Positions 3,100-17,598 of a DNA stretch of 17,716 nt are shown piece after piece. Position 1 is the stretch's first letter, and each line of letters begins with the position of its first letter. Below the pieces are notes generated by a model. The model had not been told where the DNA came from, made no database searches, and worked only from the letters and a program-made list of their open reading frames with translations. Origin of the DNA: a bacterium (lineage in GTDB: Bacteria; AUK180); NCBI GenBank assembly GCA_030622125.1, contig JAUXGM010000030.1, positions 1 through 17,716 on the forward strand, in the 5' to 3' direction. Both the position numbers and the translations under genes were made by a program.

Positions 3100-3945
3100 A
3101 TGAGGGAAGTAGATGTTACTGAATTAACTGACGCCGTAAAAAGGATGGTTATTGAATCAAACTATTACATTGTTGATGATGTTTCTAATGCCTTGAAAAA
3201 AGCTTATGAAAAGGAAACATCAGAAACGGGTAAAGCAATTTTAAAGATGATATTTGCTAATCATGAAGTTTCAAGAAAAGAAAAGATGCCTATGTGTCAG
3301 GATACCGGTGTAGCAGTTTTCTTTGTTGAAATCGGTCAGGAAATCCATCTTGTCAACGGCAATTACGAAGATGCAATAAATGAAGGTGTCCGACAGGGAT
3401 ATAAGGAGGGCTATCTCAGAAAATCCATGGTTGGTGATCCTGTAATAGAACGGAAGAATACAGGTGATAATACCCCGGCGGTTATCCATACAAGAATAGT
3501 TCGGGGAGATAAGATAAAAATTATTGTCGCACCAAAGGGCGGTGGTTCGGAAAATATGAGCGAAGTTAGGATGATGAAGGCAGCGGACGGCATGGAAGGG
3601 GTTATGGATTTTGTTGTAGAAAGGGTTAGTAAATCAGGTGGTAATCCTTGTCCGCCCGTTATTGTCGGTGTAGGCATCGGCGGAGATTTTGAAATGTCCG
3701 CAATCCTGGCAAAAAAATCTTTATTAAGGAACATTGGCGAAAGAAATTCCAATCCGAAATATGCAAAGGTTGAAGAAGAATTATTAGAAAGAATAAATAA
3801 ATTGGGTATCGGTCCTATGGGACTTGGAGGCAAAACAACGGCACTTGAAGTTTTTATAGAATATATCCCATGTCATATTGCATCTATGCCTGTTGCCGTT
3901 AATCTTAATTGTCATGTGGCAAGACACATAAAAATAATTATATAG
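3100..3945 (+). CDS. fumA: Fumarate hydratase class I, alpha subunit
   Basis: A 281-residue protein, the usual length for the separate alpha subunit of two-subunit, oxygen-sensitive class I fumarase (TtdA/FumA N-terminal type), interconverting fumarate and L-malate. It shows the three Cys ligands of the [4Fe-4S] catalytic cluster: Cys66 in MPMCQDTG, Cys184 in GGNPCPPV and Cys258 in YIPCHIASMPVA. It also has the family motifs GSENMSEVRM and GIGGDFEMSAILAKK. The start is fixed by AGGAGGTG seven bases upstream. It is first in the long central-metabolism operon. Unusually, its beta partner is not adjacent but lies 379 bases away beyond a repeat-filled gap. Some databases would name it ttdA or fumarase subunit alpha, so the symbol is a convention. 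Confidence 0.93.
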   Translation: MREVDVTELTDAVKRMVIESNYYIVDDVSNALKKAYEKETSETGKAILKMIFANHEVSRKEKMPMCQDTGVAVFFVEIGQEIHLVNGNYEDAINEGVRQGYKEGYLRKSMVGDPVIERKNTGDNTPAVIHTRIVRGDKIKIIVAPKGGGSENMSEVRMMKAADGMEGVMDFVVERVSKSGGNPCPPVIVGVGIGGDFEMSAILAKKSLLRNIGERNSNPKYAKVEEELLERINKLGIGPMGLGGKTTALEVFIEYIPCHIASMPVAVNLNCHVARHIKIII

Positions 3946-3993
3946 AGCATATGAGAATACAAATACAGTTCAAAAGTTCAAGAAAGTCTTCAT

Positions 3994-4174
3994 CTGTCAT
4001 ATTGAGCAAAGCGAAATATCCAGAAAGTCAAAATACTGGATTCTTCACCACAAGGGTTCAGAATGACAGAGAAGAGAATGCAAAGAGTGGATTCTTCGGG
4101 ACTTCGTCCCTCAGAATGACGGGCGAGGGGGAACTCCAAAGAATAGATCCTTCACATTCGTTCAGGATGACAGG
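3994..4174. repeat. Four copies of a GGATTCTTC...CAGAATGACAG extragenic element
   Basis: Copy 1 (3994-4023) is inverted: CTGTCATATTGAG to ATATCCAG. Copies 2 (4036-4069), 3 (4088-4123) and 4 (about 4145-4174) run the other way, from (T)GGATTCTTC or GATCCTTC to TCAGAATGACAG or TCAGGATGACAG. Copies 1 and 2 form a long imperfect inverted repeat. Copy 3 contains its own hairpin GGGAC-TTC-GTCCC (4098-4110). A fragment of the same element (GGGTTCTGAATGACAGA) lies at 2851-2867, and TGAACAAAGTGAA at 15425-15437 may be another. Confidence 0.65.
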
Positions 4175-4179
4175 AAAAG

Positions 4180-4214
4180 AACTCATAACTCAGAACTCAG
4201 AACTCACAACTCAC
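4180..4214 (+). repeat. Heptamer array AACTCAN, five units
   Basis: Five consecutive units matching AACTCAN without indels (starts at 4180, 4187, 4194, 4201, 4208), followed by decayed copies to about 4240. Non-coding. Confidence 0.75.
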
Positions 4215-4324
4215 GACTCTTACTCGGGACTCGCAACTTCTACATCAGAACTTTTGAACCCCGCACCCAATTGGTGCTGGGTGAACTTTGGAACTTTTAA
4301 ACAAAATTTAGAAAGGAGTTTAAT

Positions 4325-4879
4325 ATGGCGGAATACAAATTGAAAACCCCATTGGAGGAAAAGGATTTAGAGAAATTGAAGATAGGAGATCAGATCCTTT
4401 TAAGTGGAATTATTTATACTGCAAGGGATGCTGCCCATAAAAAGGTAGTTGATCTTATTGAAAAGAATGAACCATTGCCGTTTGATATGAAAGGAGCGGT
4501 GATCTATTATGTAGGACCTGCGCCTGCAAAGCCCGGTTATGCAATAGGTTCAGCTGGACCAACAACCAGTTATAGAATGGATCCTTATGCACCGATTCTT
4601 ATGAATCACGGCTTGAAAGGGATGATTGGAAAGGGACCTCGCAGCCAGAGTGTTATTGATTCAATGGTAAAAAATAAAGCGGTGTATTTAGCTGCCGTAG
4701 GTGGTGCTGCTGCACTTATTGCAAAATCAATTAAAAAAGCGGAGATTATTGCTTATGAGGATTTAAAATCAGAGGCAATAAGAAGATTGGAGGTAGAAGA
4801 TTTCCCTTGTGTCGTAGCAAATGATATTTACGGGAATGATCTTTATAAAGAAGGCACAGCTAAATATAAAGAGGAATAA
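4325..4879 (+). CDS. fumB: Fumarate hydratase class I, beta subunit
   Basis: A 184-residue protein, the expected size for the beta (C-terminal) subunit of two-subunit class I fumarase. It completes the active site on the alpha subunit's iron-sulfur cluster. Family motifs include TARDAAHKK (about residues 32-40), GPTTSYRMD, MNHGLKGMIGKGPRS and a late DFPCVVANDIYGNDLY. AAAGGAG seven bases upstream supports the ATG. The ferredoxin-KorA fusion follows 31 bases downstream, so transcription probably continues into the kor genes. The repeat-rich gap before it could alter the relative expression of the two fumarase subunits. That is inference. The symbol follows the alpha/beta naming convention and does not mean E. 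coli FumB. Confidence 0.92.
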   Translation: MAEYKLKTPLEEKDLEKLKIGDQILLSGIIYTARDAAHKKVVDLIEKNEPLPFDMKGAVIYYVGPAPAKPGYAIGSAGPTTSYRMDPYAPILMNHGLKGMIGKGPRSQSVIDSMVKNKAVYLAAVGGAAALIAKSIKKAEIIAYEDLKSEAIRRLEVEDFPCVVANDIYGNDLYKEGTAKYKEE

Positions 4880-4910: not shown

Positions 4911-6380
4911 ATGGGAATAGTTGAAAAAACTCAAAAAAAGGGCACTTCAAAAAAAGAGACGAGAGAAATAGTCATTAAGAAAGAGAGATGTAAAGGTTGT
5001 AATTTTTGTGTGGAATACTGCCCAAGAGATGTTTTAGAGGTTTCAGAAGAATTTAATGAAAAGGGTTATCATCCTCCTAAAATAGTAAACTCGGATCAAT
5101 GTCTATTTTGCGGATTATGTGAAAGAATTTGCCCTGATTTTGCAATTTATATTAAGAATAATGAAACAGAACCTGAAAAAGAAGAAAAACCAATAAGCGA
5201 AACGACACATGGTTTATTCAATATTGTAAAAAGCAAATATGAAGGTGAATTTTTCATGCAAGGTGATATTGCATGTGCAGAAGGAGCAATATATGCAGGC
5301 TGTAGATTTTTTGGTGGTTACCCCATTACACCTGCTACCGAGATCGCTGAAAGAATGGCAAAAAGGCTGCCTTTTTTAGATGGGGTTTTTATCCAATTTG
5401 AGGATGAGATCGCTTCAATGGCAGGCATCTTGGGAGCATCATGGGCGGGAGCAAAATCTATGACTGCAACATCCGGTCCCGGTATATCCCTAATGAATGA
5501 AAATATCGGTTTAGGAATGATGACTGAAACTCCCTGTGTGGTGGTAAATGTTCAAAGAGGTTCACCTTCCACCGGATTGCCTACTTCATGGGGACAAGCA
5601 GATATGATGCAGGCGAAATGGGGTTCGCATGGTGATTATGGAAGTATAACATTATGTCCGAAATCACCGCAAGAATTTTTTGATCTTACAATAGTTGCAT
5701 TTAACTACTCTGAAAAATATCGATTGCCTGTTTTTATTCTCACGGATGCCATTGTTGGACATATGATCGAAAAAGTTATAATACCACCGCCTGATAAGTT
5801 GGAAATTATCAATAGAAAGTATACAAAAAAAAGACCACAAGATTATCTTCCATATGAAGCTGAAAGTAATCTCATTCCTGATTTTGCGAAAGCAGGGGAC
5901 GGATACCATTATTATGTAACGGGATTAACCCATGATGAAAGAGGTTATCCCATAATGACCGAGGAAGTCCAGAAAGAAAATGTAACAAGATTAGTAGAAA
6001 AGATCAACACTTATAGTGATGATATAATTATTTTAGAAGAAAGAGATATTGACAAAGCTGATATTGTTGTAATTGCTTATGGTATTACATCCAGAACGGT
6101 TATACCTGCAATTGAAAAAGCTAAGAAGAAAGGAATCAAAGTAGGATATTTAAGACTCATTACGATATGGCCGTTCCCGGAAAAAAGGATCAATGAAATA
6201 GCAAGAAACATTAAGGGCTTTGTAGTTGTAGAAATGAATTTAGGACAGATCGTTTTGGAAGTTGAAAGATGTGCCGCGCCTTATACCTCCACAAAATTGG
6301 TTCCTCATGCCGGTGGTGGAATACATAATATTGACGACATTGTAAAAGCAATAGAGGAGTTAGCCCATGAAAAAAAGTAG
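4911..6380 (+). CDS. korA: 2-oxoglutarate:ferredoxin oxidoreductase, fused ferredoxin (delta) and alpha subunits
   Basis: A 489-residue fusion. Residues about 20-80 are a two-cluster ferredoxin domain: CKGCNFCVEYCP (Cys27, 30, 33, 37) and CLFCGLCERICP (Cys64, 67, 70, 74). From about residue 115 comes the alpha subunit of a 2-oxoacid:acceptor oxidoreductase, with GDIACAEGAIYAGCRFFGG, YPITPATEIAE, the EDEIASMAGILGASWAG segment and TSGPGISLMNE. GLPTSWGQADMMQ and the neighbouring TCA genes favour 2-oxoglutarate as substrate over pyruvate or branched acids. The enzyme interconverts 2-oxoglutarate plus CoA with succinyl-CoA, CO2 and reduced ferredoxin. AGGAG about 10 bases upstream supports the start. 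The 3' end overlaps korB by 14 bases. KorD and KorA are often separate genes; here they are one. Confidence 0.9.
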   Translation: MGIVEKTQKKGTSKKETREIVIKKERCKGCNFCVEYCPRDVLEVSEEFNEKGYHPPKIVNSDQCLFCGLCERICPDFAIYIKNNETEPEKEEKPISETTHGLFNIVKSKYEGEFFMQGDIACAEGAIYAGCRFFGGYPITPATEIAERMAKRLPFLDGVFIQFEDEIASMAGILGASWAGAKSMTATSGPGISLMNENIGLGMMTETPCVVVNVQRGSPSTGLPTSWGQADMMQAKWGSHGDYGSITLCPKSPQEFFDLTIVAFNYSEKYRLPVFILTDAIVGHMIEKVIIPPPDKLEIINRKYTKKRPQDYLPYEAESNLIPDFAKAGDGYHYYVTGLTHDERGYPIMTEEVQKENVTRLVEKINTYSDDIIILEERDIDKADIVVIAYGITSRTVIPAIEKAKKKGIKVGYLRLITIWPFPEKRINEIARNIKGFVVVEMNLGQIVLEVERCAAPYTSTKLVPHAGGGIHNIDDIVKAIEELAHEKK

Positions 6381-7218
6381 TATTGAAATCAACAAACACC
6401 CTATTGATAAATATCTCAGAAGAGACAGGATGCCTCATATTTGGTGTCCCGGCTGCGGCTTAGGAATGGATATAACTGCATTTATTGAAGGAACAAAGCA
6501 AGCGAATATAGACATGAATAATATGCAAATTGTTTCAGGTATCGGATGTACGGGAAGGATTTCCGGATATATCAAGTTAGATGCTTATCATACAACACAT
6601 GGCAGGGCAATTCCTTTTGCGTCAGGATTGAAATTAGCAAATCGAAACCTTACTGTTGTAGTATTTTCCGGTGATGGCGATCTTTTTGCTATTGGCGGCA
6701 ATCATTTGATACATGCGGCAAGAAGAAATGTTGATCTAACCGTTATATGCGTCAATAATTTTATTTACGGAATGACAGGCGGACAGACAGCACCTACCAC
6801 ACCGGTGGGAGCATTCAGCTCTACCGCTCCTTATGGTAATTTTGAAAAACCTTTTAATCTGGTGGGAGTAGCCGCTTCTGCCGGAGCTTCTTATGTTGCA
6901 AGATGGACTTCACTTCATACAAAAAGATTAGCAAATTCCATTGCAAAGGCATTAAGTAATAAAGGTTTTTCTTTTATAGAAATCGTTTCTCCTTGTCCTA
7001 CGGTTTTTGGTAGAAAAAATAATAGAAGTGATGCTCTTGGTTTAATAAATGAATTAAGAGATAGATCCCGCATCGATAATTCTGCAAACCCAACGGAAAT
7101 TCCAATTACCAATTATGGGGAAATAGTTATTGGAGATTTTTTAAATGAACCTCGTCCGTGTTTTTCTGAAAGTTTTGAAGAAGGCATAAAGAAAACAAAA
7201 GAAAGGATTGAAAAATGA
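6367..7218 (+). CDS. korB: 2-oxoglutarate:ferredoxin oxidoreductase, beta (TPP-binding) subunit
   Basis: A 283-residue subunit carrying the thiamine diphosphate site and one [4Fe-4S] cluster. The likely cluster ligands are Cys27 and Cys30 (WCPGCGLG), Cys61 (GIGCTGR) and Cys210 (VSPCPTVFG). The TPP/Mg motif starts at GDGD (about 102-105) and continues through AIGGNHLIHAARRN to VNNFIYGMTGGQ. HTTHGRAIPFASG is also typical. It starts inside the end of korA (14-base overlap), which suggests translational coupling, and overlaps korC by four bases (ATGA). It works with the alpha and gamma subunits to transfer electrons from 2-oxoacid decarboxylation to ferredoxin, or the reverse for carboxylation of succinyl-CoA. 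Length is normal for KorB. Confidence 0.93.
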   Translation: MKKSSIEINKHPIDKYLRRDRMPHIWCPGCGLGMDITAFIEGTKQANIDMNNMQIVSGIGCTGRISGYIKLDAYHTTHGRAIPFASGLKLANRNLTVVVFSGDGDLFAIGGNHLIHAARRNVDLTVICVNNFIYGMTGGQTAPTTPVGAFSSTAPYGNFEKPFNLVGVAASAGASYVARWTSLHTKRLANSIAKALSNKGFSFIEIVSPCPTVFGRKNNRSDALGLINELRDRSRIDNSANPTEIPITNYGEIVIGDFLNEPRPCFSESFEEGIKKTKERIEK

Positions 7219-7763
7219 AAGATTGTAATTTTAAGATAGTTGGTTTTGGCGGACAAGGGATTATTCTTACTTCTTATGTTTTAGGGACTGCTATTTCAAT
7301 TCATGACGGGAATAGTGTTTCAATGACCCAATCTTACGGACCTGAAGCAAGGGGAGGGACATGCAGTTCACAACTTGTAATAAGCAGTAGTGAAGTAAAT
7401 TACCCTCTTGTTGAAAAAACAGATATATTGGTAGTGTTATCACAAGAAGGCTATGATAAATATTTTCAAATATTAAATACCGACGGTGTACTTTTTTATG
7501 ATTTAAATATGGTGAAAAAAGAGAAAATTAATAAAAAAATAAAAGCATTTTCTATTCCCGCAACCAAAATTGCCGAAGATTTGGGGAATAAACTTTTCGC
7601 AAATATGGTAATGTTGGGTTTTATTGCAGCCCACACTGATATAGTAAAAGCAGGATCTTTGAAAAAAGCTATTAAAGAAACTGTTTCCCCAAAATATATT
7701 GATATTGATCTAAAAGCATTTGATCTTGGATATCATTACGCTGAAAATGCTAACAAGGAGTAG
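7215..7763 (+). CDS. korC: 2-oxoglutarate:ferredoxin oxidoreductase, gamma subunit
   Basis: A 182-residue gamma subunit, normal length. It has the family signature GFGGQGIILTSYVLG near the N-terminus (about residues 10-24), followed by MTQSYGPEARGGTCSSQLV (about 38-56), conserved in the gamma domain of 2-oxoacid:ferredoxin oxidoreductases, where it contributes to the CoA-binding interface. The ATGA overlap with korB indicates coupled translation. It completes the kor set DA-B-C. The hdrA homologue begins three bases after its stop, with its ribosome site inside the korC 3' end. That places the ferredoxin-linked enzyme and the Hdr/Frd genes on one message. Confidence 0.92.
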   Translation: MKDCNFKIVGFGGQGIILTSYVLGTAISIHDGNSVSMTQSYGPEARGGTCSSQLVISSSEVNYPLVEKTDILVVLSQEGYDKYFQILNTDGVLFYDLNMVKKEKINKKIKAFSIPATKIAEDLGNKLFANMVMLGFIAAHTDIVKAGSLKKAIKETVSPKYIDIDLKAFDLGYHYAENANKE

Positions 7764-7766
7764 AAA

Positions 7767-10157
7767 GTGAGAATAGGAGTATATGTATGTCATTGTGGAG
7801 GAAATATCTCCGAAGTCGTTAATATAGATGAAGTGCTGAATTCCTTAAAAAACGAACATGATGTCGCATTTGTAAAAGACCATGAACATCTTTGTTCCAA
7901 AGAAGGACAGGAAATCATTTTTAATGATATTCAAGAATATAAGTTAGATAAAATCACTATTGCCGCTTGTTCACCTCAATTTCAAGGACCCACATTCAAA
8001 ACACTTATGGAAAGAGCCGGCTTGAGCCCATATTTAATGGAAATGGCTAATATAAGAGAGCAAAGTGCATGGGTACATTACGATGATCACAAAAAGGCTA
8101 CTGATAAAGCTAAAGAATTAACAAAAATGGCAATTGCCAAGGTTCGATATAATGAACCCCTTTCCAAGTATAGTATAGATATCGGCAAAAGGACCTTAAT
8201 AATCGGAGCTGGAATTGCGGGAATACAAGCCGCTTTGGATCTCGCTGATTCAGGGATAAAGGTCTATTTAGTTGAAAAAGATCCTTCTATCGGGGGACAT
8301 ATGGCGCAATTATCAAGAACATTTCCCACGGAAGACTGCTCAGCATGTATTCTTTCCCCTAAAATGGCTGATGTTCCTGAAAATCCGAACATAGAACTAT
8401 TAACCTATGGAGAGATAAAAGATGTTTCAGGTTATCTTGGAAATTTCCATATTACCGTTAATAGGAAACCGACATATGTTGATGCTGAAAAATGTACGGC
8501 TTGTGGAGATTGCGCAGATGTATGTCCCGTGGAGCTGCTTAATGAATATGATGGTAACCTCGCAACAAGGAAAGCCATATACCTACCTACAAAAATAGCG
8601 GTGCCGCATTCATATGTTCTTGATACGGAGCATTGTCTCGGCTTGAATCCTTTGGCTTGCGGGAAATGTCAAGAGGTGTGTAAAGCCGATGCAATAAATT
8701 ATGATCTCTATGAAGAGGAAATTGAATTCGATGTTGATACCATTATAGTTGCAACAGGTTTTGAATTATTCGATGCAAAGGAAAAGCCTGAATACGGGTT
8801 TGGGAAATTCAAAAATGTTATTGACGGAATGCAAATGGAAAGGATCATTGTATCCAGCGCGGAAGGGAATCCTTTGAAAGACATTGGAAAAAAAATTGCC
8901 TATATACAATGTATCGGTTCAAGAGATAAACAGATCGGCAGACCGTATTGTTCAAGGATTTGCTGTATGTATGCAATTAAACAGGCTAACTTACTGAAGA
9001 AAGGAATGCCGGATCGGGATATTTACATTTTCTACATTGACATTCGAGCTTTTGGCAAAGGATTTGAGGAATATTACAATACCGCTCAGGAAAATGGAGT
9101 GAAATTTATTAGAGGAAAGGTTGCCGAATTAATGGAAAATCCCGATACCGGCAAAATTATCGTAAAAGCAGAGGATACATTAAATAGACAAATGATAGAA
9201 ACAGAATTTGATACCGTAGTTCTATCGGTTGGAATCGGACCAAGTAAAACTACGGAAAATATTTCAAATATGTTGAAATTGGCAAGGAGTTCAGACGGAT
9301 TTTTACAAGAAGCTCATCCAAAATTCAAGCCTGTTGATACACTTGTACCGGGTATATTTTTAGCCGGCACAATTCAGGGTCCCAAAGATATTCCGGATAC
9401 TGTTTCACAAGCAAGCGGTTCGGCGGCAAGGGCGATCAGGTTAATGAATCAAGGAGAATATTTCTTTGATCCGCTATTGGCTTTTGTTGATGAAGAAAAA
9501 TGTGACGGTTGTGGATTATGTGTTGATCATTGCCCGTATAACGCAATATCAATGGCGGGAAAAACAGCAGAGGTCAATACCGCTTTCTGCTCAGGTTGCG
9601 GCAGTTGTATTTCATATTGTCCAAAAGACGCACTGGACCTGCACTTGTATACCAATAAACAATTATTGGAACAGATTAAAGAGGCAGTTATTAATAAGGG
9701 AGATGAGCCAAGAGTTCTGGTATTTGCCGATGACATGACTGCGTACAGATTGGCAGATAATGTCGGGAATGCAAAAGGCATTTATTCGCCGTACAGCAGA
9801 ATAATCAAAGTTCCTTCTTCCTGTAGGGTAACTCCTAAATTATTGCTCCAGGCATTCCATTATGGTGCTGATTCCGTTCTGATTTTAGGGACCGAAACAA
9901 AATCTTCACCATACCCGCATTGCCAGGAAGAAATAGAAAGATCTGTGAAAATAGTCCATAATATTTTAAAAGAAAATGAGATATCCGATAAAAGATTGTT
10001 CAATACCACCATTGTTACTGTAATGATAAAGAAGTTCTCGGGTATAATAAATACTTATACGGATCTGGCTAAGACATTAGGCCCCATTCCATTAGAAAAA
10101 AGAGAAAAATTGTTAAAAGACCTTGGGAAAAAGATTTTTGGAGGCAGCCATGAGTAA
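7767..10157 (+). CDS. hdrA: HdrA-like flavin/iron-sulfur subunit with degenerate MvhD-like tail
   Basis: A 796-residue protein starting with GTG, six bases after AAGGAG. The N-terminal HdrA domain has VCHCGGNISEVV and AACSPQFQGPTF. The FAD domain has GAGIAG (147-152), GGHMAQLSRTFPTEDCSAC (ending at Cys194) and the late GTIQGPKDIPDTVSQASG. An inserted ferredoxin domain has CTACGDCADVCP (Cys243-253) and HCLGLNPLACGKCQEVC. Near the C-terminus lie two more clusters, Cys579-589 and Cys608-618. Residues about 650-796 resemble MvhD/FlpD (SSCRVTPKLLLQAFHYGADSVLILG) but lack most of its cysteines. HdrA is the flavin-bifurcating subunit of heterodisulfide reductase and its bacterial relatives. Here it precedes HdrC, HdrB and Frd-like genes, so it probably connects ferredoxin to fumarate/succinate. 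Some methanogen HdrA proteins are about 650 residues. Confidence 0.88.
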   Translation: MRIGVYVCHCGGNISEVVNIDEVLNSLKNEHDVAFVKDHEHLCSKEGQEIIFNDIQEYKLDKITIAACSPQFQGPTFKTLMERAGLSPYLMEMANIREQSAWVHYDDHKKATDKAKELTKMAIAKVRYNEPLSKYSIDIGKRTLIIGAGIAGIQAALDLADSGIKVYLVEKDPSIGGHMAQLSRTFPTEDCSACILSPKMADVPENPNIELLTYGEIKDVSGYLGNFHITVNRKPTYVDAEKCTACGDCADVCPVELLNEYDGNLATRKAIYLPTKIAVPHSYVLDTEHCLGLNPLACGKCQEVCKADAINYDLYEEEIEFDVDTIIVATGFELFDAKEKPEYGFGKFKNVIDGMQMERIIVSSAEGNPLKDIGKKIAYIQCIGSRDKQIGRPYCSRICCMYAIKQANLLKKGMPDRDIYIFYIDIRAFGKGFEEYYNTAQENGVKFIRGKVAELMENPDTGKIIVKAEDTLNRQMIETEFDTVVLSVGIGPSKTTENISNMLKLARSSDGFLQEAHPKFKPVDTLVPGIFLAGTIQGPKDIPDTVSQASGSAARAIRLMNQGEYFFDPLLAFVDEEKCDGCGLCVDHCPYNAISMAGKTAEVNTAFCSGCGSCISYCPKDALDLHLYTNKQLLEQIKEAVINKGDEPRVLVFADDMTAYRLADNVGNAKGIYSPYSRIIKVPSSCRVTPKLLLQAFHYGADSVLILGTETKSSPYPHCQEEIERSVKIVHNILKENEISDKRLFNTTIVTVMIKKFSGIINTYTDLAKTLGPIPLEKREKLLKDLGKKIFGGSHE

Positions 10158-10557
10158 GATGATAGATTTATCAAAAGAAGCGGATGAATTCTTAAAAAAG
10201 ATAGAGGAACTCAGCGGAGAAAAGATCACGAGTTGTATTCAATGCGGTATTTGTTCAGGAAGTTGTCCGATGATCAATGAAATGGATTTAACACCTGCTC
10301 AAATTATGTTAATGACTTTATTAGGTCAAAAGGAAGAATTGTTAAAATCAAAATCCATATGGATATGTGCTTCCTGTTATACCTGCACGGTCCGATGCCC
10401 AAGAGAATTGGACCTTTCAAAGGTCGCAGAGGCGTTACGACAGGTCAAACTGAGACTTTCCATTGATCGTATAGATATAAATAAGATGGATAAGGCGGAT
10501 CTGGAAGAGTTACCGCCGATAGCTCTTGTCTCGGCTTTCAGAAAGTTTACAGGATAG
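10150..10557 (+). CDS. hdrC: HdrC-like iron-sulfur subunit
   Basis: A 135-residue protein using the ATG at 10150, five bases after GGAGG (10140-10144). A longer frame opening at 10123 has no ribosome site and would overlap HdrA more. It contains two [4Fe-4S] motifs, CIQCGICSGSCP (Cys29, 32, 35, 39) and CASCYTCTVRCP (Cys73, 76, 79, 83), in the helical HdrC fold. HdrC passes electrons between HdrA and HdrB. It overlaps hdrA by eight bases and hdrB starts nine bases later. In class E succinate:quinone reductases a similar small subunit (SdhF-like) can occur, so HdrC and SdhF roles are not distinguishable from sequence alone. Confidence 0.88.
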   Translation: MSKMIDLSKEADEFLKKIEELSGEKITSCIQCGICSGSCPMINEMDLTPAQIMLMTLLGQKEELLKSKSIWICASCYTCTVRCPRELDLSKVAEALRQVKLRLSIDRIDINKMDKADLEELPPIALVSAFRKFTG

Positions 10558-10566
10558 GAGATAAAA

Positions 10567-11469
10567 ATGAAGATACCCTACTATCCGGGTTGTACATTAA
10601 AAACAAAGGCAAAAAACTTTGAGAGATCCTCCATTGCCGTCGCCGAAATGCTCGGAGTTGAACTTGTTGAACTTCCTAAATGGAATTGTTGTGGTGTTGT
10701 TCATTCTTTGACATCGGATGATCTGATCCATCATCTTGCTCCAATAAGGAATTTGGTCCGTGTCCAGGAGATGAACGAGGAAAAATTGGTTGAAGATGAA
10801 TTTAGACTTGTTACGCTTTGTTCAATGTGTTATAATACACTAAAGAGATCAAATCTAAGATTTATAGAAAATTATGAAGAGAGAGAAAAGATAAACAGTA
10901 TTATGGAACGAGAAGAGGATTACAAAGGAAATGTAAAGGTTGTTCATTTTCTGGAAATATTAAGGGATATAGGTTATGATAAAATAAGTGATAAGATCAA
11001 AAAGCCACTTGATAAATTGAAGATTGCGGTATATTATGGATGCAATCTCCTGAGACCTAAGGAGGTGGGTATCGATGACCCTGAAAACCCTGATATACTG
11101 GAAACCCTTTTTGAATCACTGGGAGCGGAGGTTACCCTCTTCCCATATAAAAAGATGTGCTGTGGAAGTTATCAAACGGTTCTGGATAAAGAGAGTGTTG
11201 CCGATCTGACATATAATATCCTCTCCAATGCAAAGGAACATCATGCCGAGATAGTTGTAACAAGCTGTCCGCTGTGTGCTTTTAATTTAGATAACAGGCA
11301 GGAAATTGTTAGATCCAAACATTCCGAATTCAAAGCTATCCCTGTTGTCTATTTTTCCCAGTTGATGGCATTGGCTTTTGGATTGAATATTGAGATATGC
11401 GGTTTTGATTCGAACTATATTAGTGCGCTGCCCTTACTGAAAAAAAAGGGTTATTTAAAAAATAAATAG
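10567..11469 (+). CDS. hdrB: HdrB/SdhE-like subunit with two CCG domains
   Basis: A 300-residue protein with two cysteine-rich CCG domains. The first is Cys9 (PYYPGC), Cys41-Cys42 (NCCG), Cys85 and Cys88 (CSMC). The second is Cys159 (YGCNLL), Cys198-Cys199 (MCCGSY), Cys234 and Cys237 (CPLC). Both are complete. In methanogen HdrB these bind two non-cubane [4Fe-4S] clusters that reduce the disulfide CoM-S-S-CoB. In class E Sdh/Frd (SdhE, as in Campylobacter and Sulfolobales) and in TfrB, equivalent domains are associated with fumarate/succinate conversion. The next two genes are Frd/Sdh-like subunits, so a role as electron conduit to them is likely. AGGAG upstream supports the ATG. The natural disulfide or quinone partner is unknown. 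Confidence 0.87.
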   Translation: MKIPYYPGCTLKTKAKNFERSSIAVAEMLGVELVELPKWNCCGVVHSLTSDDLIHHLAPIRNLVRVQEMNEEKLVEDEFRLVTLCSMCYNTLKRSNLRFIENYEEREKINSIMEREEDYKGNVKVVHFLEILRDIGYDKISDKIKKPLDKLKIAVYYGCNLLRPKEVGIDDPENPDILETLFESLGAEVTLFPYKKMCCGSYQTVLDKESVADLTYNILSNAKEHHAEIVVTSCPLCAFNLDNRQEIVRSKHSEFKAIPVVYFSQLMALAFGLNIEICGFDSNYISALPLLKKKGYLKNK

Positions 11470-11483
11470 TGTGGAGGAAGTAT

Positions 11484-12263
11484 ATGGTTAAAAAAGATAT
11501 TATGGAAGAAATTGCAAAAGCAAACAAGTCGGTTATTAAGGGAGTGGATAAGAAGGATATAGAACATTGGGCAACGATTTACATAATGGGAAAGGCGTAT
11601 CGAGTACCTGCCGATCTGACCATTATGCAAGCGATGGAATATGCCGGATACAAATTTATTCGTTCCTGTGGTTGCAGAGCAGGTTTTTGCGGTGCCTGTT
11701 CAACGATATACAGATTGAAGGGAGATTACAAATTACAAACGGCAATGGCATGTCAGACACGGGTAGAGGACGGTATGTATCTCGTTCAACTTCCATTTTC
11801 TCCTGCTGAAAAGCCGATCTATGATATCGATACCGTAGAATATGAAGAGAATAGTTTTCTGAAATATTTTCCCGAGATTGCCAGATGTGTCTCCTGTAAT
11901 ACCTGTACAAAGGCATGTCCGCAGGATTTAGAGGTTATGGATTTTATTCAAGCAGCTCTCAGGGGAGACTTTAAAAAGGTGGCTGAGCTTTCATTTGATT
12001 GTATCCAGTGCGGATTATGTGCAATTAGATGTCCTGCGGAGATCGTTCAATACAATGTAGCTCAATTCGGAAGAATCATGTATGGTAAATACGGTTTTAA
12101 GGAAAACGAGTTTCTTGAAAAAAGGGTTACGGAAATAAAAGAGGGAAAATTTGATAAGGAATTTAAGAGATTATTATCTCTCAGCGGGAATAAAATAGTT
12201 GATGTCTATAAGAAACAGCAGGCAACAAAGAGTAAATACTTAAAAAAAGGGGGTAAAAAATGA
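11484..12263 (+). CDS. frdB: Fumarate reductase/succinate dehydrogenase-like iron-sulfur subunit
   Basis: A 259-residue protein from ATG 11484, six bases after GGAGG (11473-11477). The frame also opens at a GTG at 11469 with no proper ribosome site. It has a plant-type [2Fe-2S] site, C-x4-C-x2-C at Cys64-69-72 plus Cys90, with an extra Cys62. Two further clusters follow: CVSCNTCTKACP (Cys135-145) and CIQCGLCAIRCP (Cys173-183). In classical SdhB/FrdB the third site lacks one Cys and holds [3Fe-4S]. Here all four are present, predicting [4Fe-4S] as in class E Sdh and TfrB-like proteins. No membrane segment is present. It overlaps the flavoprotein gene by four bases. The symbol denotes the family; the direction in the cell is unknown. 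Confidence 0.85.
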   Translation: MVKKDIMEEIAKANKSVIKGVDKKDIEHWATIYIMGKAYRVPADLTIMQAMEYAGYKFIRSCGCRAGFCGACSTIYRLKGDYKLQTAMACQTRVEDGMYLVQLPFSPAEKPIYDIDTVEYEENSFLKYFPEIARCVSCNTCTKACPQDLEVMDFIQAALRGDFKKVAELSFDCIQCGLCAIRCPAEIVQYNVAQFGRIMYGKYGFKENEFLEKRVTEIKEGKFDKEFKRLLSLSGNKIVDVYKKQQATKSKYLKKGGKK

Positions 12264-13924
12264 GTGAATATAAACTTATAGGCGGCTATCCCGAGGATAT
12301 GCGCAAATCAATAGAAAAACTTGAAAAAACAAGAGACCGAAGAGTTGGAAGGCTTCCAAAAGGTATGACCTTAGAGGAAAGAGAAGAGGTTTTGAATCTT
12401 TGTCATCCCGATTATACCCCTGGCGGTAAAAGAAAAATACCCATTGGGGTCAATAAGGGAGATACGGCACCAACCGAGGTCGTTGAGCTTTTAGAAGCAA
12501 ATCCGGCAATCGATACAAAAGATATTGATCTTTCCAATATTGATTATGAAACGGATATACTGATCATTGGCGGCGGATTGACAGGAACAGCAGCAGCACT
12601 TCTTGCCAACGATAACGGCGTCCCTGTTGAAAAGATTCTCCTTGTCAATAAGTTAAGGCATGGAGATTCAAATTCAATTATGGCTCAGGGAGGAACTCAA
12701 GCTGCGGATTCACCCGTAGATTCTCCACCCATTCACTATCTTGATGCGATAGGAGGAGGTCATTTTACAAATAAACCGGATGTTTTGAAAGCACTGGTAG
12801 AGGAAGCACCTATTGCATTAAAATGGATAGTTGATCTTGGTGTGCTTTTTGATAGAACAGAGGATGGAGATTTCGTGAGGCTACCCGGAGGAGGTACTTC
12901 AAGAAAGAGGATGCATGCCTGTAAGGATTACACAGGGCTGGAGGAATTAAGGGTTATAAGAGATGAATTTAGAAATAGAAAGATCCCTGTTTTAGAATTC
13001 TGTCCCGTTGTAGAACTTTTGACCGATTCCGTTACCGATAAGGTTACGGGGGCAGTGCTCTGGGAGATGGAAACAGGTGATTATAAGATCGTAAGGGCTA
13101 AGGCAACGATACTTGCAACGGGTGGCTTTGGAAGACTTCATATCAGGGGCTTTCCAACCACAAATCATTATGGTGCAACAGCAGATGGCATTGTATTAGC
13201 ATACAGGGCAGGGGCAAAACTAAAAGATACCGATACCGTTCAATACCATCCCACAGGTGCAGCATATCCACAGCAGATCATAGGACTTCTTCTTACTGAG
13301 AAATTAAGATCTATGGGAGCACAGCCTATCAATAAAGAGGGTGAAGCATTTGTTTACCCGCTTGAACCAAGAGATGTTGAAGCATCAAGGATCATTAAAG
13401 AGTGTTATATTAACGATATGGGAGTAACAACCCCAACGGGAATGAAAGGGATCTGGCTTGATACTCCACTAATTGATATAATAAACGGTCCGGCAACTAT
13501 TGAAAAATCCTTTCCCGGTATGGTGAGAATGTTCAAAAGATTCGGTATAGATATGATAAAAGACCCCGTTCTTATCTTCCCGACACTTCATTACCAGAAT
13601 GGCGGAGTGGAGACCGATCCCGAAGGAAGAACCAATATCAAAGGACTTTTTGTTGCAGGAGAAGCCTCAGGTGGTGTTCATGGAAAAAATAGATTGATGG
13701 GAAACTCCACCCTTGATTGTATTGTTTTTGGGAGGATCTCAGGAAAGACCGCTGCTTCTTATATTAAAGGCTATAAGAAGAAGGATAAGATCAGCTTCAG
13801 GCATCTTGAAAAATACGGAAAATTATTTAAGGATGCAGGAATAAAAGCAAAGGGAAGGGCGCCGATCCTGTTACCTGAATATAGAGGAAAAGCTGTTCTT
13901 GAAAGAATGATTGATGTATTTTAA
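12260..13924 (+). CDS. frdA: Fumarate reductase/succinate dehydrogenase-like flavoprotein subunit
   Basis: A 554-residue FAD protein. The Rossmann motif GGGLTG is at 104-109, so about 97 residues precede it. Normally only a few do. Catalytic motifs are kept: QYHPTG (His330), the KLRSMGAQPINKEG segment, RDVEASR, TLHYQNGGV (His444) and GKNRLMGNSTLD (Arg478). The usual covalent-FAD histidine four residues before AQGG is replaced by Asn138 (SNSIMAQGG), so FAD is probably non-covalent, as in L-aspartate oxidase. Only about 76 residues follow Arg478, against roughly 190-210 in E. coli SdhA/FrdA, so the C-terminal helical domain is mostly missing. The length is close to that of archaeal TfrA. The substrate is most likely fumarate/succinate, given fumarase and SucCD nearby. 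L-aspartate oxidase is less likely in this context. Confidence 0.83.
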   Translation: MSEYKLIGGYPEDMRKSIEKLEKTRDRRVGRLPKGMTLEEREEVLNLCHPDYTPGGKRKIPIGVNKGDTAPTEVVELLEANPAIDTKDIDLSNIDYETDILIIGGGLTGTAAALLANDNGVPVEKILLVNKLRHGDSNSIMAQGGTQAADSPVDSPPIHYLDAIGGGHFTNKPDVLKALVEEAPIALKWIVDLGVLFDRTEDGDFVRLPGGGTSRKRMHACKDYTGLEELRVIRDEFRNRKIPVLEFCPVVELLTDSVTDKVTGAVLWEMETGDYKIVRAKATILATGGFGRLHIRGFPTTNHYGATADGIVLAYRAGAKLKDTDTVQYHPTGAAYPQQIIGLLLTEKLRSMGAQPINKEGEAFVYPLEPRDVEASRIIKECYINDMGVTTPTGMKGIWLDTPLIDIINGPATIEKSFPGMVRMFKRFGIDMIKDPVLIFPTLHYQNGGVETDPEGRTNIKGLFVAGEASGGVHGKNRLMGNSTLDCIVFGRISGKTAASYIKGYKKKDKISFRHLEKYGKLFKDAGIKAKGRAPILLPEYRGKAVLERMIDVF

Positions 13925-13944: not shown

Positions 13945-15294
13945 ATGGAAGATAAAAAAGCTAATGTTGAAAAGCTTTTAGCAAAAGCAAAAAAACCGGG
14001 ACTGGATGCTATGGAACTGCATCCTTTCTATAAAGGTAAGGTAGAGGTTACATTAAAATGTACCGTGAGGGATTTTAATGATTTTGCGATATGGTATACA
14101 CCGGGAGTTGCGTCACCATGTCGGGATATTCAACAACATCCCGAAAAGGTATTTGAACATACCAATAAAGGCAACTTCGTAGCAGTGGTAAGTGATGGCA
14201 CGAGAGTCTTAGGTCTTGGTGATATTGGTCCTGAAGCGGGATTACCCGTAATGGAAGGTAAGGCACTACTCTTTAAATATCTTGGTGGTGTGGATGCATT
14301 TCCTATCTGTTTAAAAGAGAAGGACCCGGATAAGATTATAGAAATAGTAAAGGCACTTGAACCATCATTCGGCGGCATAAATCTTGAGGATATTTCCCAG
14401 CCAAAATGTTTTTATATCCTTGACAAATTAAGAGAAGAGATGAATATACCCGTTTGGCATGATGATCAGCAGGGAACCGCTACTGTTACACTTGCAGGAC
14501 TTTATGGTGCTTTAGAGGTTGTTGGTAAAAATATTGAAGATGTCCGGATTGCCTTTGTAGGTGCCGGTGGTGCAAATATTGCAATTTCCCGTGTTCTTAT
14601 ACTTGCCGGCTTTAAGCCAGAAAAAATGATCATGGTAGATAGCAAGGGTATATTGAACAAGGATAGGGAAGACCTAAATACATCAAAAACAAAGGAAAAA
14701 TGGAATATGTGTACGATAAGTAATTCCGAAAATAAGAAAGGCGGGATAGCGGAAGCACTTGAAGGAGCAGATGTGTGTATCGCCCTTTCAAAACCAGGTC
14801 CCGGAACTATCAAAAAAGAATGGGTAGCAAAGATGAACTCTGATGCAATTGTCTTTGCTTGTGCAAATCCTGTACCGGAGATATGGCCGTGGGAAGCAAA
14901 GGAAGCAGGTGCAAGGATCGTTTCAACAGGCAGAAGTGATTTCCCGAATCAGGTGAATAATTCTCTTGGATTCCCTGCTATATTCAGGGGAGTTTTAGAT
15001 GTCGTAGCACATACCGTTACAGATACAATGTGTATAGCAGCAGCAAAATCGCTTTTAAAAAGTGCCAAAAAGAAAGGATTAAGTGACAATTATATCACTC
15101 CTACAATGGATGATACTGATGCATTTATAGAGGAAGCAGTCGCCTGTGGTATGCAGGCAATAAAGGAAGGAACGGCAAAGAAAAAGTTAACCGAAGAGGA
15201 ATTACGAAAAAGTGCCGGAGAAAAGATCACCCGTGCAAGAAAGCTTGTGCATCTTGCAATGAAGAAGAAGATCATACCGAAAGCACCTAAGTAA
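13945..15294 (+). CDS. NAD(P)-dependent malic enzyme, short single-domain form
   Basis: A 449-residue malic enzyme without the C-terminal phosphotransacetylase-like domain of MaeB. It interconverts malate with pyruvate and CO2, with NAD(P) as cofactor. Motifs are AIWYTPGVASPC (Tyr51, the likely catalytic Tyr), VVSDGTRVLGLGDIGPEAGL, FGGINLEDISQPKCF (metal-binding acidic residues), VWHDDQQGTATVTLAG and the dinucleotide fold FVGAGGANIA. The later FACANPVPEI and STGRSDFPNQVNNSLGFP are also typical. AGGAGGT upstream gives a clear start 20 bases after frdA, so it is probably the last gene of the operon. It connects the C4 acids made by the fumarase and Frd genes with pyruvate. Cofactor preference cannot be read reliably. 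Confidence 0.92.
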   Translation: MEDKKANVEKLLAKAKKPGLDAMELHPFYKGKVEVTLKCTVRDFNDFAIWYTPGVASPCRDIQQHPEKVFEHTNKGNFVAVVSDGTRVLGLGDIGPEAGLPVMEGKALLFKYLGGVDAFPICLKEKDPDKIIEIVKALEPSFGGINLEDISQPKCFYILDKLREEMNIPVWHDDQQGTATVTLAGLYGALEVVGKNIEDVRIAFVGAGGANIAISRVLILAGFKPEKMIMVDSKGILNKDREDLNTSKTKEKWNMCTISNSENKKGGIAEALEGADVCIALSKPGPGTIKKEWVAKMNSDAIVFACANPVPEIWPWEAKEAGARIVSTGRSDFPNQVNNSLGFPAIFRGVLDVVAHTVTDTMCIAAAKSLLKSAKKKGLSDNYITPTMDDTDAFIEEAVACGMQAIKEGTAKKKLTEEELRKSAGEKITRARKLVHLAMKKKIIPKAPK

Positions 15295-15605: not shown

Positions 15606-16460
15606 CTAAAAGAAACCGGGGATATCCTGTGGTAAATTTGCTACCTTGATCCCGGCTTTTTCCAAATATTCTATTTTAGCTTGTGCGGTTTCATTTTTCC
15701 CCGAGATTATTGCTCCGGCGTGCCCCATTCTCTTTCCCTTCGGTGCGGTTTTTCCTGCAATAAAAGCGATTACAGGTTTTTTTACATTTTCCTTTATATA
15801 ATCAGCGGCAATAATTTCATCATTACCGCCGATCTCTCCTATCAAGACAATGCCTTCTGTCTCTTCATCGGCATTGAACATTTTTAAAAGCTTAAGAAAT
15901 CGACTTCCGATAATAGGATCACCGCCAATGCCGACAACAGTAGTTTGTCCAATCCCGGCAGTTGTTAAGCCATAAACTACCTCATAGGTAAGTGTTCCAC
16001 TTCTTGAGATAACTCCGATATTACCTTTTTTACAGATATTTCCCGGAAGGATCCCCATTTTCGCTTCTCCCGGTGATATTAGACCTGGACAATTCGGTCC
16101 GATTATGGTAATATTCTTTCCTTTAATATAATTCTTTATTTTTAACATCTCTAATGCAGGAATACCTTCCGTAATTACAACGATTAATTTTATTTCTTCA
16201 TCAATTGCTTCCCATATAGCATCTGCTGCAAATTTTGGCGGAACAAATATAGTTGTAGCATCAACGGAAAATTCTTTTTTTAAGTCGGAAACAGAATTGA
16301 AAACGGGCTTTCCCGCAACTTCAATACCACCCTTTCCCGGTGTAACTCCGGCGATGACCTTTGTACCGTATTCAATCATCATTTTTGTATGAAATCCACC
16401 ATCTCTTCCTGTAATACCCTGAATAATGACATTTGTATCTTTATTTAAAAGAATTGACAT
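15606..16460 (-). CDS. sucD: Succinyl-CoA synthetase (ADP-forming), alpha subunit
   Basis: A 284-residue alpha subunit, normal length. It has the N-terminal CoA-binding domain ([17 protein letters not shown], near residues 13-29), [28 protein letters not shown] and the phosphohistidine site KRMGHAGAI. The histidine is residue 247, essentially the same position as His246 of E. coli SucD. With SucC it converts succinyl-CoA, ADP and phosphate to succinate, CoA and ATP, reversibly. The ATG follows the sucC stop by one base, and its AGGAG lies inside the sucC 3' end, so translation is coupled. It converges on the malic-enzyme gene. It supplies the step between the Frd and Kor reactions encoded on the other strand. 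Confidence 0.95.
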
Positions 16461-16461
16461 A

Positions 16462-17598
16462 TTAATCTCCTATCATTGAAACGGCTTTTTTCACCGCTTC
16501 CTGCATTGAAGTGGCAATATCCAAATTAAGAGAGTTAAGTATTTTAACCCCTTCTTTTTCGTTGGTACCTGTTAATCTAATAACAATTGGAATGGAAATT
16601 TCAAGTTTCTCCATAGCTATTTTTATACCATTTGCAATATCATCACATCTTGTAATTCCCCCGAAGATATTGAATAAGATCACCTTAACATTTTTATCTC
16701 TTTTTAGTATCTTTAAGGCATTGATTACCTTATCAGGATTGGAAGAACCGCCAACATCAAGAAAATTTGCAGGTTCACCTCCAAAATATTTTATCATATC
16801 CATGGTTGTCATTGCCAGTCCGGCACCATTTACGATACATCCGATATTACCGTTCAATTGAACATAGCTTAAACCTGCTTTTTTTGCATCAAGTTCTTCG
16901 GAAGTAAGATCATCGTAATTTATAAACGAATCGAAATCGCTTAAAAATGGTATCCCATTATCATCTACGACTATCTTAGAATCAAGTGCTATTACCCTAT
17001 TACCTTTGATAATAGCCAGGGGATTTATTTCTACAAGATTTAATGAAAGTTCAATCACCATCTGGTACATTTTTTTTATTATATATCTAAATTGATTTTT
17101 TAAATTACGATCCTTAATCTTTGTTTTCTCAAAAAATTTTACAAAATGATGATTTTTTAATCCGATCAAGGGATCAATATCAAGTTTCAATATGGCTTCA
17201 GGGTTTTCTTCGGCAAGAATTTCTATTTCCGTACCGCCCTGAGATGATGTTATCATTGTTATCTTTTCACTATTTCTATTCAGCATAAATGAAAGATAAA
17301 ATTCTTGTTCAATATTTAGTCCTTCTTCTATTAGAACTTTTTCAACCTTATACCCTTTAATGTCCATTCCAAATAAGTTTTCCAAAGCAGATTCAATCTC
17401 ACTGACCTGTTTTATTAATTTTACACCACCTGCTTTCCCTCTTCCTCCAACTAAAACCTGTGCTTTTGCTACGATAGGGAAAATATCCTGATCAATCATT
17501 TTGAAAGCATCATCTTTACTATAAAATATCTTGCCTTTTGGAATCGGTATAAGATATTTTGCGAATAATCTCTTGCCCTGAAATTCGTATAATTTCAT
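16462..17598 (-). CDS. sucC: Succinyl-CoA synthetase (ADP-forming), beta subunit
   Basis: A 378-residue beta subunit (E. coli SucC is 388). It opens with [15 protein letters not shown], typical of this ATP-grasp family. It has the nucleotide-binding [17 protein letters not shown] (about 44-60), [12 protein letters not shown] with the metal ligands, and the C-terminal flavodoxin-like half with [27 protein letters not shown] and [15 protein letters not shown]. The ribosome site GAGAGGT precedes the ATG. A promoter is visible about 25 bases further upstream. It forms a two-gene operon with sucD. Codon and base composition match the kor/hdr cluster, so I see no sign that it is foreign. Confidence 0.95.

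Follow-up and report, generated by a model that had tools for sequence, protein, structure and literature searches.

Which donor and which acceptor would be served by HdrA, HdrB and HdrC homologues whose genes run directly into those of a fumarate reductase? The question is raised by contig JAUXGM010000030.1 of GenBank assembly GCA_030622125.1, from a bacterium of the GTDB lineage AUK180. The whole contig (C74; 17,716 nucleotides, hereafter the window) was analyzed together with its genome (G000), which comprises 2.08 Mb in 192 contigs and is 96% complete. About 4% of this genome may be missing, and the genome-wide negative results for G000 are to be read with that limit. A first-pass annotation had described a block of five genes at positions 7767-13924, and the block was confirmed: genes for HdrA, HdrC, HdrB, an FrdB-like subunit and an FrdA-like subunit follow one another in overlapping or tightly spaced frames. 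We propose, with a probability of about 0.6, that the five products would work as a single unit (HdrA*BC-FrdAB) and serve as a cytoplasmic fumarate reductase coupled to ferredoxin. The name HdrA* is used for an HdrA variant with a cluster-less FlpD/MvhD domain.

The proposed electron path would connect the flavin adenine dinucleotide (FAD) of HdrA with the [4Fe-4S] clusters of HdrC, the CCG clusters of HdrB, the clusters of FrdB, the FAD of FrdA and finally the fumarate/succinate couple. Since the electrons of HdrB would pass to FrdB, FrdB would stand in for the heterodisulfide and fumarate would serve as the high-potential acceptor. Low-potential electrons would pass between the ferredoxin domains of HdrA and the pool of ferredoxin used by the neighboring 2-oxoacid:ferredoxin oxidoreductase (Kor).

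Subunits of the Hdr-Frd block and their relatives

The genes on the forward strand are arranged in the order fumA-fumB-korDA-korB-korC-hdrA-hdrC-hdrB-frdB-frdA-mae and are followed by sucDC on the reverse strand. The spacing is 3 nucleotides between korC and hdrA, 9 between hdrC and hdrB, 14 between hdrB and frdB, and 20 between frdA and mae; hdrA and hdrC overlap by 8 nucleotides, and frdB and frdA by 4. Sequences resembling ribosome-binding sites accompany the genes of the operon.

The gene for HdrA* (7767-10157, forward strand) starts with GTG and encodes 796 residues, of which approximately 1-640 form the core. The core aligns over its full length with the solved HdrA chains 8rvu (728 bits) and 5odc (699 bits; chain 5odc_A). 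Its cluster cysteines are kept, and 26 cysteines are conserved. The FAD-gating pair K409/E356 of 5odc corresponds to K405/E358 in HdrA*, aligned and invariant; the gating roles of this lysine and glutamate have been described (PMC12054007).

The start of hdrC (10150-10557, forward strand) was placed at 10150, the TTG start at 10123 being a mechanical call. The product carries two [4Fe-4S] clusters and matches the HdrC model with 70.6 bits, QmoC with 70.9 bits and the solved chain 8rvv_C with E = 2e-17. HdrB (10567-11469, forward strand) has two CCG domains (PF02754 twice, E = 4.3e-23), and both motifs for the non-cubane clusters are kept, as in HdrABC of the MvhADG-HdrABC type. It scores nearly equally against the HdrB and SdhE models (183 and 173 bits), and the latter value is below the SdhE family cut-off of 500 bits. 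No second CCG protein was found in a search of the G000 genome, and HdrB stands alone.

The FrdB-like gene (11484-12263, forward strand) has an ATG start preceded by GGAGG. Its product matches Fer2_4 and Fer4_9, and the family alignment places a [2Fe-2S] domain ahead of two [4Fe-4S] motifs with four cysteines each. The [3Fe-4S] cluster is typical of quinone-linked enzymes. As four cysteines are present at each motif, the protein would carry a second [4Fe-4S] cluster and has no motif of the quinone-type [3Fe-4S] kind.

FrdA (12260-13924, forward strand) has an N-terminal extension of about 95 residues and matches PF00890 (FAD_binding_2) with E = 6e-65. Among the NCBIfam models it scores best with TfrA, at 292 bits. 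This score and those of HdrA* against the HdrA2 model (NF040770, 944 bits), of FAD_binding_2 and of CCG are far above chance. The catalytic set H330, E347, R371, H444 and R478 is invariant among 15 homologs and corresponds, by alignment or motif, to H232, E245, R287, H355 and R390 of Escherichia coli FrdA. All 15 sequences have asparagine (Asn138) at the place of H44, the residue of E. coli FrdA that binds FAD covalently, and binding of FAD is expected from the sequence to be non-covalent. L-Aspartate oxidase was considered as an identity for FrdA and was rejected: G000 encodes a separate NadB, and FrdA is therefore not needed in that role.

The TfrA match raises the alternative of a thiol:fumarate reductase, in which HdrB would oxidize a dithiol (a bacterial counterpart of coenzymes M and B) and deliver the electrons to FrdB while HdrA and HdrC served a separate role. 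Both catalytic cluster motifs of HdrB are compatible with this chemistry. TfrB of methanogens is a fusion of FrdB-like and HdrB-like parts, and the TfrB model matches both FrdB and HdrB here. These matches reach only 32-40 bits at a cut-off of 385, the TfrA score is far under its cut-off of 718, and in G000 the two parts are encoded by separate genes, accompanied by hdrA and hdrC. Coenzymes M and B are not known to occur in bacteria of this kind. Such an enzyme is thus very improbable.

The linkage of the block was followed through a comparison set of 386 sampled genomes, as the first-pass annotation had suggested. The N-extended FrdA subfamily occurs in 42 of them, and gene neighborhoods were inspected at 36 loci. 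A single contig scan that used FrdA alone as the query had returned 3 loci only. The linkage holds across the subfamily: frdB adjoins frdA at 34 of the 36 loci, and hdr genes lie nearby at 28. Input genes are of the MvhG/MvhA kind at ten loci and of the Flx type at ten. G003 and G004, which belong to the same family, have the same operon with a separate, cluster-bearing mvhD and an mvhG between hdrA and hdrC, and with a large hydrogenase subunit downstream. Members of the FrdA clade to which G000 belongs (100/100 support, 7 rows) have Mvh, Flx or HdrA* as their input, which means that input modules have been swapped around a stable frdBA core. At loci L034 and L035, kor lies between hdrB and hdrA, an arrangement similar to that of published flx-hdr-kor-tfr clusters.

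Several observations weigh against a single Hdr-Frd unit that reduces fumarate. The similarity of FrdB to SdhB and TfrB is weak, and its AlphaFold model (predicted local distance difference test, pLDDT, 76) has no decisive fold match. The model of HdrA* is of low confidence (pLDDT 57) and was not used. The genes alone do not fix the direction of flow; the reductive direction is likely on the energetics and the citrate-cleavage genes discussed below. At L040, L046, L048, L107 and L112, frdBA has no hdr genes within the stretch inspected, and FrdAB may therefore also serve other partners. Such unaccompanied pairs would also be expected if the genes of the block were merely co-regulated and Hdr and Frd were separate enzymes. 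We regard this as improbable, because the hdr-frdBA neighborhood is conserved across many families despite shuffled surroundings.

A donor domain without its cluster

The first-pass annotation assumed a working HdrA bifurcation set and overlooked the C-terminus of HdrA*, as it did the N-terminal extension and Asn138 of FrdA and the four-cysteine motifs of FrdB. Residues 647-780 (approximate limits) constitute a fused FlpD/MvhD-type domain (PF02662, E = 1.9e-20). The canonical MvhD motifs FxCxWC, CSGR and GCHPGDCHY appear in it as FADDMT, SSCR and GTETKSSPY, and in the alignment all five [2Fe-2S] cysteine positions of MvhD are lost. No MvhAG or Flx genes linked to hdrA* are present in the window, unlike in the relatives, and no [NiFe] hydrogenase (PF00374) is matched anywhere in G000. 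The earlier assumption of a working bifurcation set is therefore not supported.

The altered motif is also invariant in HdrA of G001, G002, G140 and G345, and the conserved pattern of the domain (FlpD*) reads FADDxTxYRxxDxVG...RxTP...SSPY. A domain search identified HdrA* in five of the 386 genomes, each above 250 bits, with the next best match at 88 bits. Relative to the G001 copy, dN/dS is 0.16 for FlpD* and 0.06 for the HdrA core. Decay by pseudogenization or an assembly error was rejected in view of the invariance of the motif in five genomes of three families and of the low dN/dS. An F420 enzyme of the HdrA2 type was likewise rejected, since HdrA* has a different kind of FlpD domain: this part scores 61 bits against the same region of the HdrA2 model for which canonical MvhD scores 172 bits, and the whole-protein score is below the cut-off of 1100.

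As the donor-docking domain is rebuilt and carries no cluster, the third partner of HdrA* would be neither a hydrogenase nor Flx. In G000 it would be an unlinked partner, for which the Mrp-Nuo-GltD complex is the best candidate, or there would be none. In the latter case the port for pair donors has been lost and the enzyme would be a ferredoxin:fumarate oxidoreductase of a simple kind, without bifurcation, and would draw the reductive arm forward at an energy cost. The absence of all five cysteine positions, of linked MvhAG or Flx and of a detected [NiFe] hydrogenase in G000 agrees with such an enzyme, as does the use of the same ferredoxin that Kor makes or uses. Direct coupling of ferredoxin to fumarate has an energy change of about -100 kJ/mol at standard potentials by our own arithmetic. 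Against such an enzyme, about 0.5 V would be wasted and the FAD-gating pair is retained. The rebuilt domain is also shared, in conserved form and under purifying selection, by families that are not related, which suggests a role in binding instead of decay. We consider the loss of a third partner possible, at less than even odds.

The history of hdrA differs from that of its neighbors. Its nucleotide identity to the copy in G001 (locus L054), which belongs to another genus, is mostly 91-96%, and that of hdrC and hdrB is just 53-67%. Judged from these identities, hdrA* has moved lately, by transfer or by recombination confined to hdrA.

Two different hdr cassettes occur in the one genome bin of G001, at L054 (contig C163) and L056 (contig C109). 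Both cassettes open with an identical stretch of 25 nucleotides, and both close with a shared sequence of about 70 nucleotides (2 mismatches) that runs from the end of hdrB into the start of frdB. They represent either a strain-level cassette swap or alleles, or two loci that share frdBA.

Membrane subunits and the Mrp-Nuo-GltD complex

No SdhC/SdhD-type gene had been reported for the window, and none was found there; a search of G000 with Sdh_cyt (PF01127) likewise returned no match. G000 therefore lacks the anchor of quinone-linked SdhABCD and FrdABCD within the scope of that search, and HdrB, at its SdhE score, does not qualify as the anchor of class E SdhABE or MFR. None of the annotated genes in the window encodes a transmembrane segment, and Mrp and NuoH controls gave 2-9. 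The description of a soluble, membrane-free system is true of the encoded subunits and may not extend to the working complex.

In G140 a single operon encodes MnhE-F-G-B-C-D, NuoL, NuoH-B-C-D and a NuoI/GltD fusion, followed by hdrA*-hdrC-hdrB-frdB-frdA. The fusion contains a flavoprotein domain of the NAD(P)H type. This operon (L113 with L099; G140:C76:84001-120000) is a candidate ion-pumping Hdr-fumarate reductase. Orthologs of the Mbx-like Mrp-Nuo-GltD complex also occur in G345, G001 and G002. In G000, contig C85 encodes MnhE-F-G-B-C-D and ends inside NuoL; its MnhD and NuoL are 66% and 60% identical to those of G140, versus 32-36% to other paralogs. The Nuo-GltD half was not found in G000, where neither PF00346 nor a GltD fusion was matched.

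The HdrA* complex may dock on this membrane complex and receive or give up electrons, by way of ferredoxin or NAD(P)H, through the rebuilt FlpD domain, and fumarate/succinate turnover would then be coupled to ion pumping. Besides the G140 operon, the distribution is in favor: the orthologous complex is present in about 7 of the 386 genomes, which include all five with HdrA*, G000 having at least the Mrp and NuoL half. The hypergeometric P is 3e-10 by genome and 3e-6 with families collapsed, for an identity cut-off set once the data had been seen and for a set in which three of the five HdrA* genomes belong to one family. Physical linkage occurs in one genome only, the Nuo-GltD half is not assembled in G000, and G246 and G319 have the complex without HdrA*. 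Docking is thus a possibility of about the same weight as the absence of a third partner. A bolder version, which is rather doubtful, makes HdrA* a new branch in which the [2Fe-2S] port of MvhD has been replaced by a docking or ligand site that plugs HdrABC-FrdAB onto Mrp-Nuo-GltD. The result would be a quinone-free, ion-motive fumarate reductase that feeds ferredoxin-dependent CO2 fixation.

Elsewhere in G000, locus L137 (contig C75) encodes NuoE- and NuoF-like proteins together with a GltD/NuoG-like protein of 1054 residues, and resembles a bifurcating transhydrogenase of the Stn type. It is a possible ferredoxin/NAD(P)H exchanger in G000.

Direction of flow, precedents and surrounding genes

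In relatives with MvhAG or Flx, two donor pairs from H2 or reduced nicotinamide adenine dinucleotide (NADH) would yield one succinate and one reduced ferredoxin. That ferredoxin is the amount Kor would need to carboxylate the succinyl-CoA derived from the same succinate. With E0' values of +33 mV for fumarate, -500 mV for ferredoxin, -320 mV for NADH and -414 mV for H2, we calculate a bifurcation energy of about -33 kJ/mol with NADH and -70 kJ/mol with H2. The main direction would probably be reductive, from malate through fumarate, succinate and succinyl-CoA to 2-oxoglutarate. The setting of Kor, fumarase and succinyl-CoA synthetase fits a ferredoxin-coupled reductive four-carbon arm.

At L141 (G000, contig C43) a gene for citryl-CoA lyase (259 bits, above the cut-off) lies near a gene of the aconitase/3-isopropylmalate dehydratase family. 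These genes possibly encode the citrate cleavage step of a reductive tricarboxylic acid (TCA) cycle, and their presence in G000 favors reductive use.

The first-pass annotation had also offered endergonic succinate oxidation, which is the less likely direction. The complex would then confurcate electrons from succinate and Kor-derived reduced ferredoxin to a two-electron carrier. Every step is reversible in principle, and Kor acting on 2-oxoglutarate would yield matching ferredoxin. Confurcation to NAD+ would require an input of about 33 kJ/mol at standard potentials, the donor/acceptor port that it needs is lost in HdrA*, and the citryl-CoA lyase and aconitase-family genes speak for the reductive arm. 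We regard this direction as unlikely. The earlier idea of a soluble Hdr-Frd complex that ties ferredoxin to the fumarate/succinate couple is otherwise borne out by the conserved hdr linkage, the FrdA active site, K405/E358 and the Kor context, and fails at the donor site. The claim that no membrane is involved holds for the subunits and is called into question by the G140 operon and by the Mrp half in G000.

The design is less novel than the first-pass annotation implied, having been put forward for several organisms (PMC6315080, PMC7282089, PMC8542988, PMC11636981). Clusters of the form flxABCD-hdrABC-korABCD-tfrAB, attributed to the reductive TCA cycle, occur in the Escarpia laminata symbiont, Thioflavicoccus mobilis and Endoriftia, and their authors propose one complex that feeds Kor and fumarate reductase (PMC6315080, PMC11636981). 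In gene content they share the interspersed Hdr, four-subunit Kor and Tfr/Frd genes with the present operon, and differ in having Flx where G000 has the cluster-less FlpD domain fused to HdrA. For the Flx-Hdr-Frd "succinate operon" of Pseudoclostridium thermosuccinogenes, a coupling between the reduction of fumarate and that of ferredoxin has been proposed (PMC7282089, citing 10.20944/preprints201912.0288). In gene content it also combines a soluble fumarate reductase with HdrABC, and has the NADH-type Flx input that is absent from the G000 operon. Ca. Celaenobacter of the Cloacimonadota has an Mvh-Hdr-Tfr-Kor-Fum-Suc cluster (PMC8542988) with the same reductive-arm genes and Hdr. The closest relatives, G003 and G004, are likewise of the Mvh type, whereas the G000 operon has no MvhA, MvhG or cluster-bearing MvhD. 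As Flx/Mvh-Hdr-Kor-Tfr/Frd clusters have already been published with bifurcation models, the G000 operon is a variation on a known design: hdrABC, kor and frdAB are together, and the linked NADH or H2 input module is missing.

Other known systems are more distant. MvhADG-HdrABC shares the gating lysine and glutamate and the HdrB and HdrC motifs with the G000 proteins, but not the [2Fe-2S] entry site or a donor subunit such as MvhAG. HdrA2B2C2 of Methanosarcina acetivorans, in which the MvhD part of HdrA2 is reported to hold an Fe2S2 cluster (PMC5296606), also has HdrA fused to an MvhD-type domain and no hydrogenase subunits; the G000 domain has lost the cluster cysteines and the block is linked to FrdAB. 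Nothing in G000 pointed to F420 as donor, though no search aimed at its biosynthesis was made. Methanogen TfrAB resembles the block in combining an FrdA-like subunit with FrdB- and HdrB-like parts, and differs in that G000 has a separate HdrB plus HdrA and HdrC, with TfrA and TfrB scores far under the cut-offs. The Ehe cluster of Culexarchaeia encodes, besides HdrBC, SdhA and HdrA2B2C2, a membrane complex of the Nuo/hydrogenase type that includes a subunit of the ion antiporter kind (PMC9723716). Ehe is an archaeal [NiFe] hydrogenase, and the counterpart here combines Mrp-Nuo-GltD with HdrA*BC-FrdAB, whose genes are in direct linkage in G140 alone. Neither HdrA* and its association with Mrp-Nuo-GltD nor an experiment on a purified Hdr-Frd complex of this kind was found in the open-licence papers searched. 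For bacteria with the reductive TCA cycle, the source of low-potential ferredoxin has been called an unsettled matter (PMC10052474). One concrete answer would be a conserved Hdr-Frd core whose input can be switched between H2, NADH and, possibly, a membrane complex of the ion-motive kind, and HdrA* makes it testable whether an HdrA complex functions without the iron-sulfur entry site of MvhD.

The genes around the block encode central carbon enzymes. Upstream on the forward strand are the alpha (3100-3945; PF05681, E = 2.6e-119) and beta (4325-4879; PF05683, E = 1.2e-60) subunits of a class I fumarase. They are followed by a KorD-KorA fusion (4911-6380; PF01855, E = 5.9e-68; PRK08659, 558 bits; OGOR_delta, 74 bits), likely of a 2-oxoglutarate:ferredoxin oxidoreductase. 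KorB (6367-7218) was assigned from its translation and its place between KorDA and KorC, where G003 and G004 have an ortholog, and KorC (7215-7763) matches PF01558 with E = 1.2e-37. Downstream is a malate dehydrogenase of the malic-enzyme type (13945-15294, forward strand; PF00390, PF03949; PRK12861, 330 bits). The alpha (SucD, 15606-16460; NF004230, 424 bits) and beta (SucC, 16462-17598; NF001913, 435 bits) subunits of succinyl-CoA synthetase, on the reverse strand, both exceed their cut-offs.

At 1051-2215 there are two genes (122 and 260 residues) without an NCBIfam match, the second of which, on visual inspection, shows a repeated pattern. In the gap that precedes the fumarase genes, a tandem array at 2425-2845 consists of 5.9 copies of a 71 bp unit with 90% matches. 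The gap between fumA and fumB (3945-4325) spans 380 bp with short tandem repeats, versus only about 10-100 bp in G003 and G004, and looks like an inserted repeat element.

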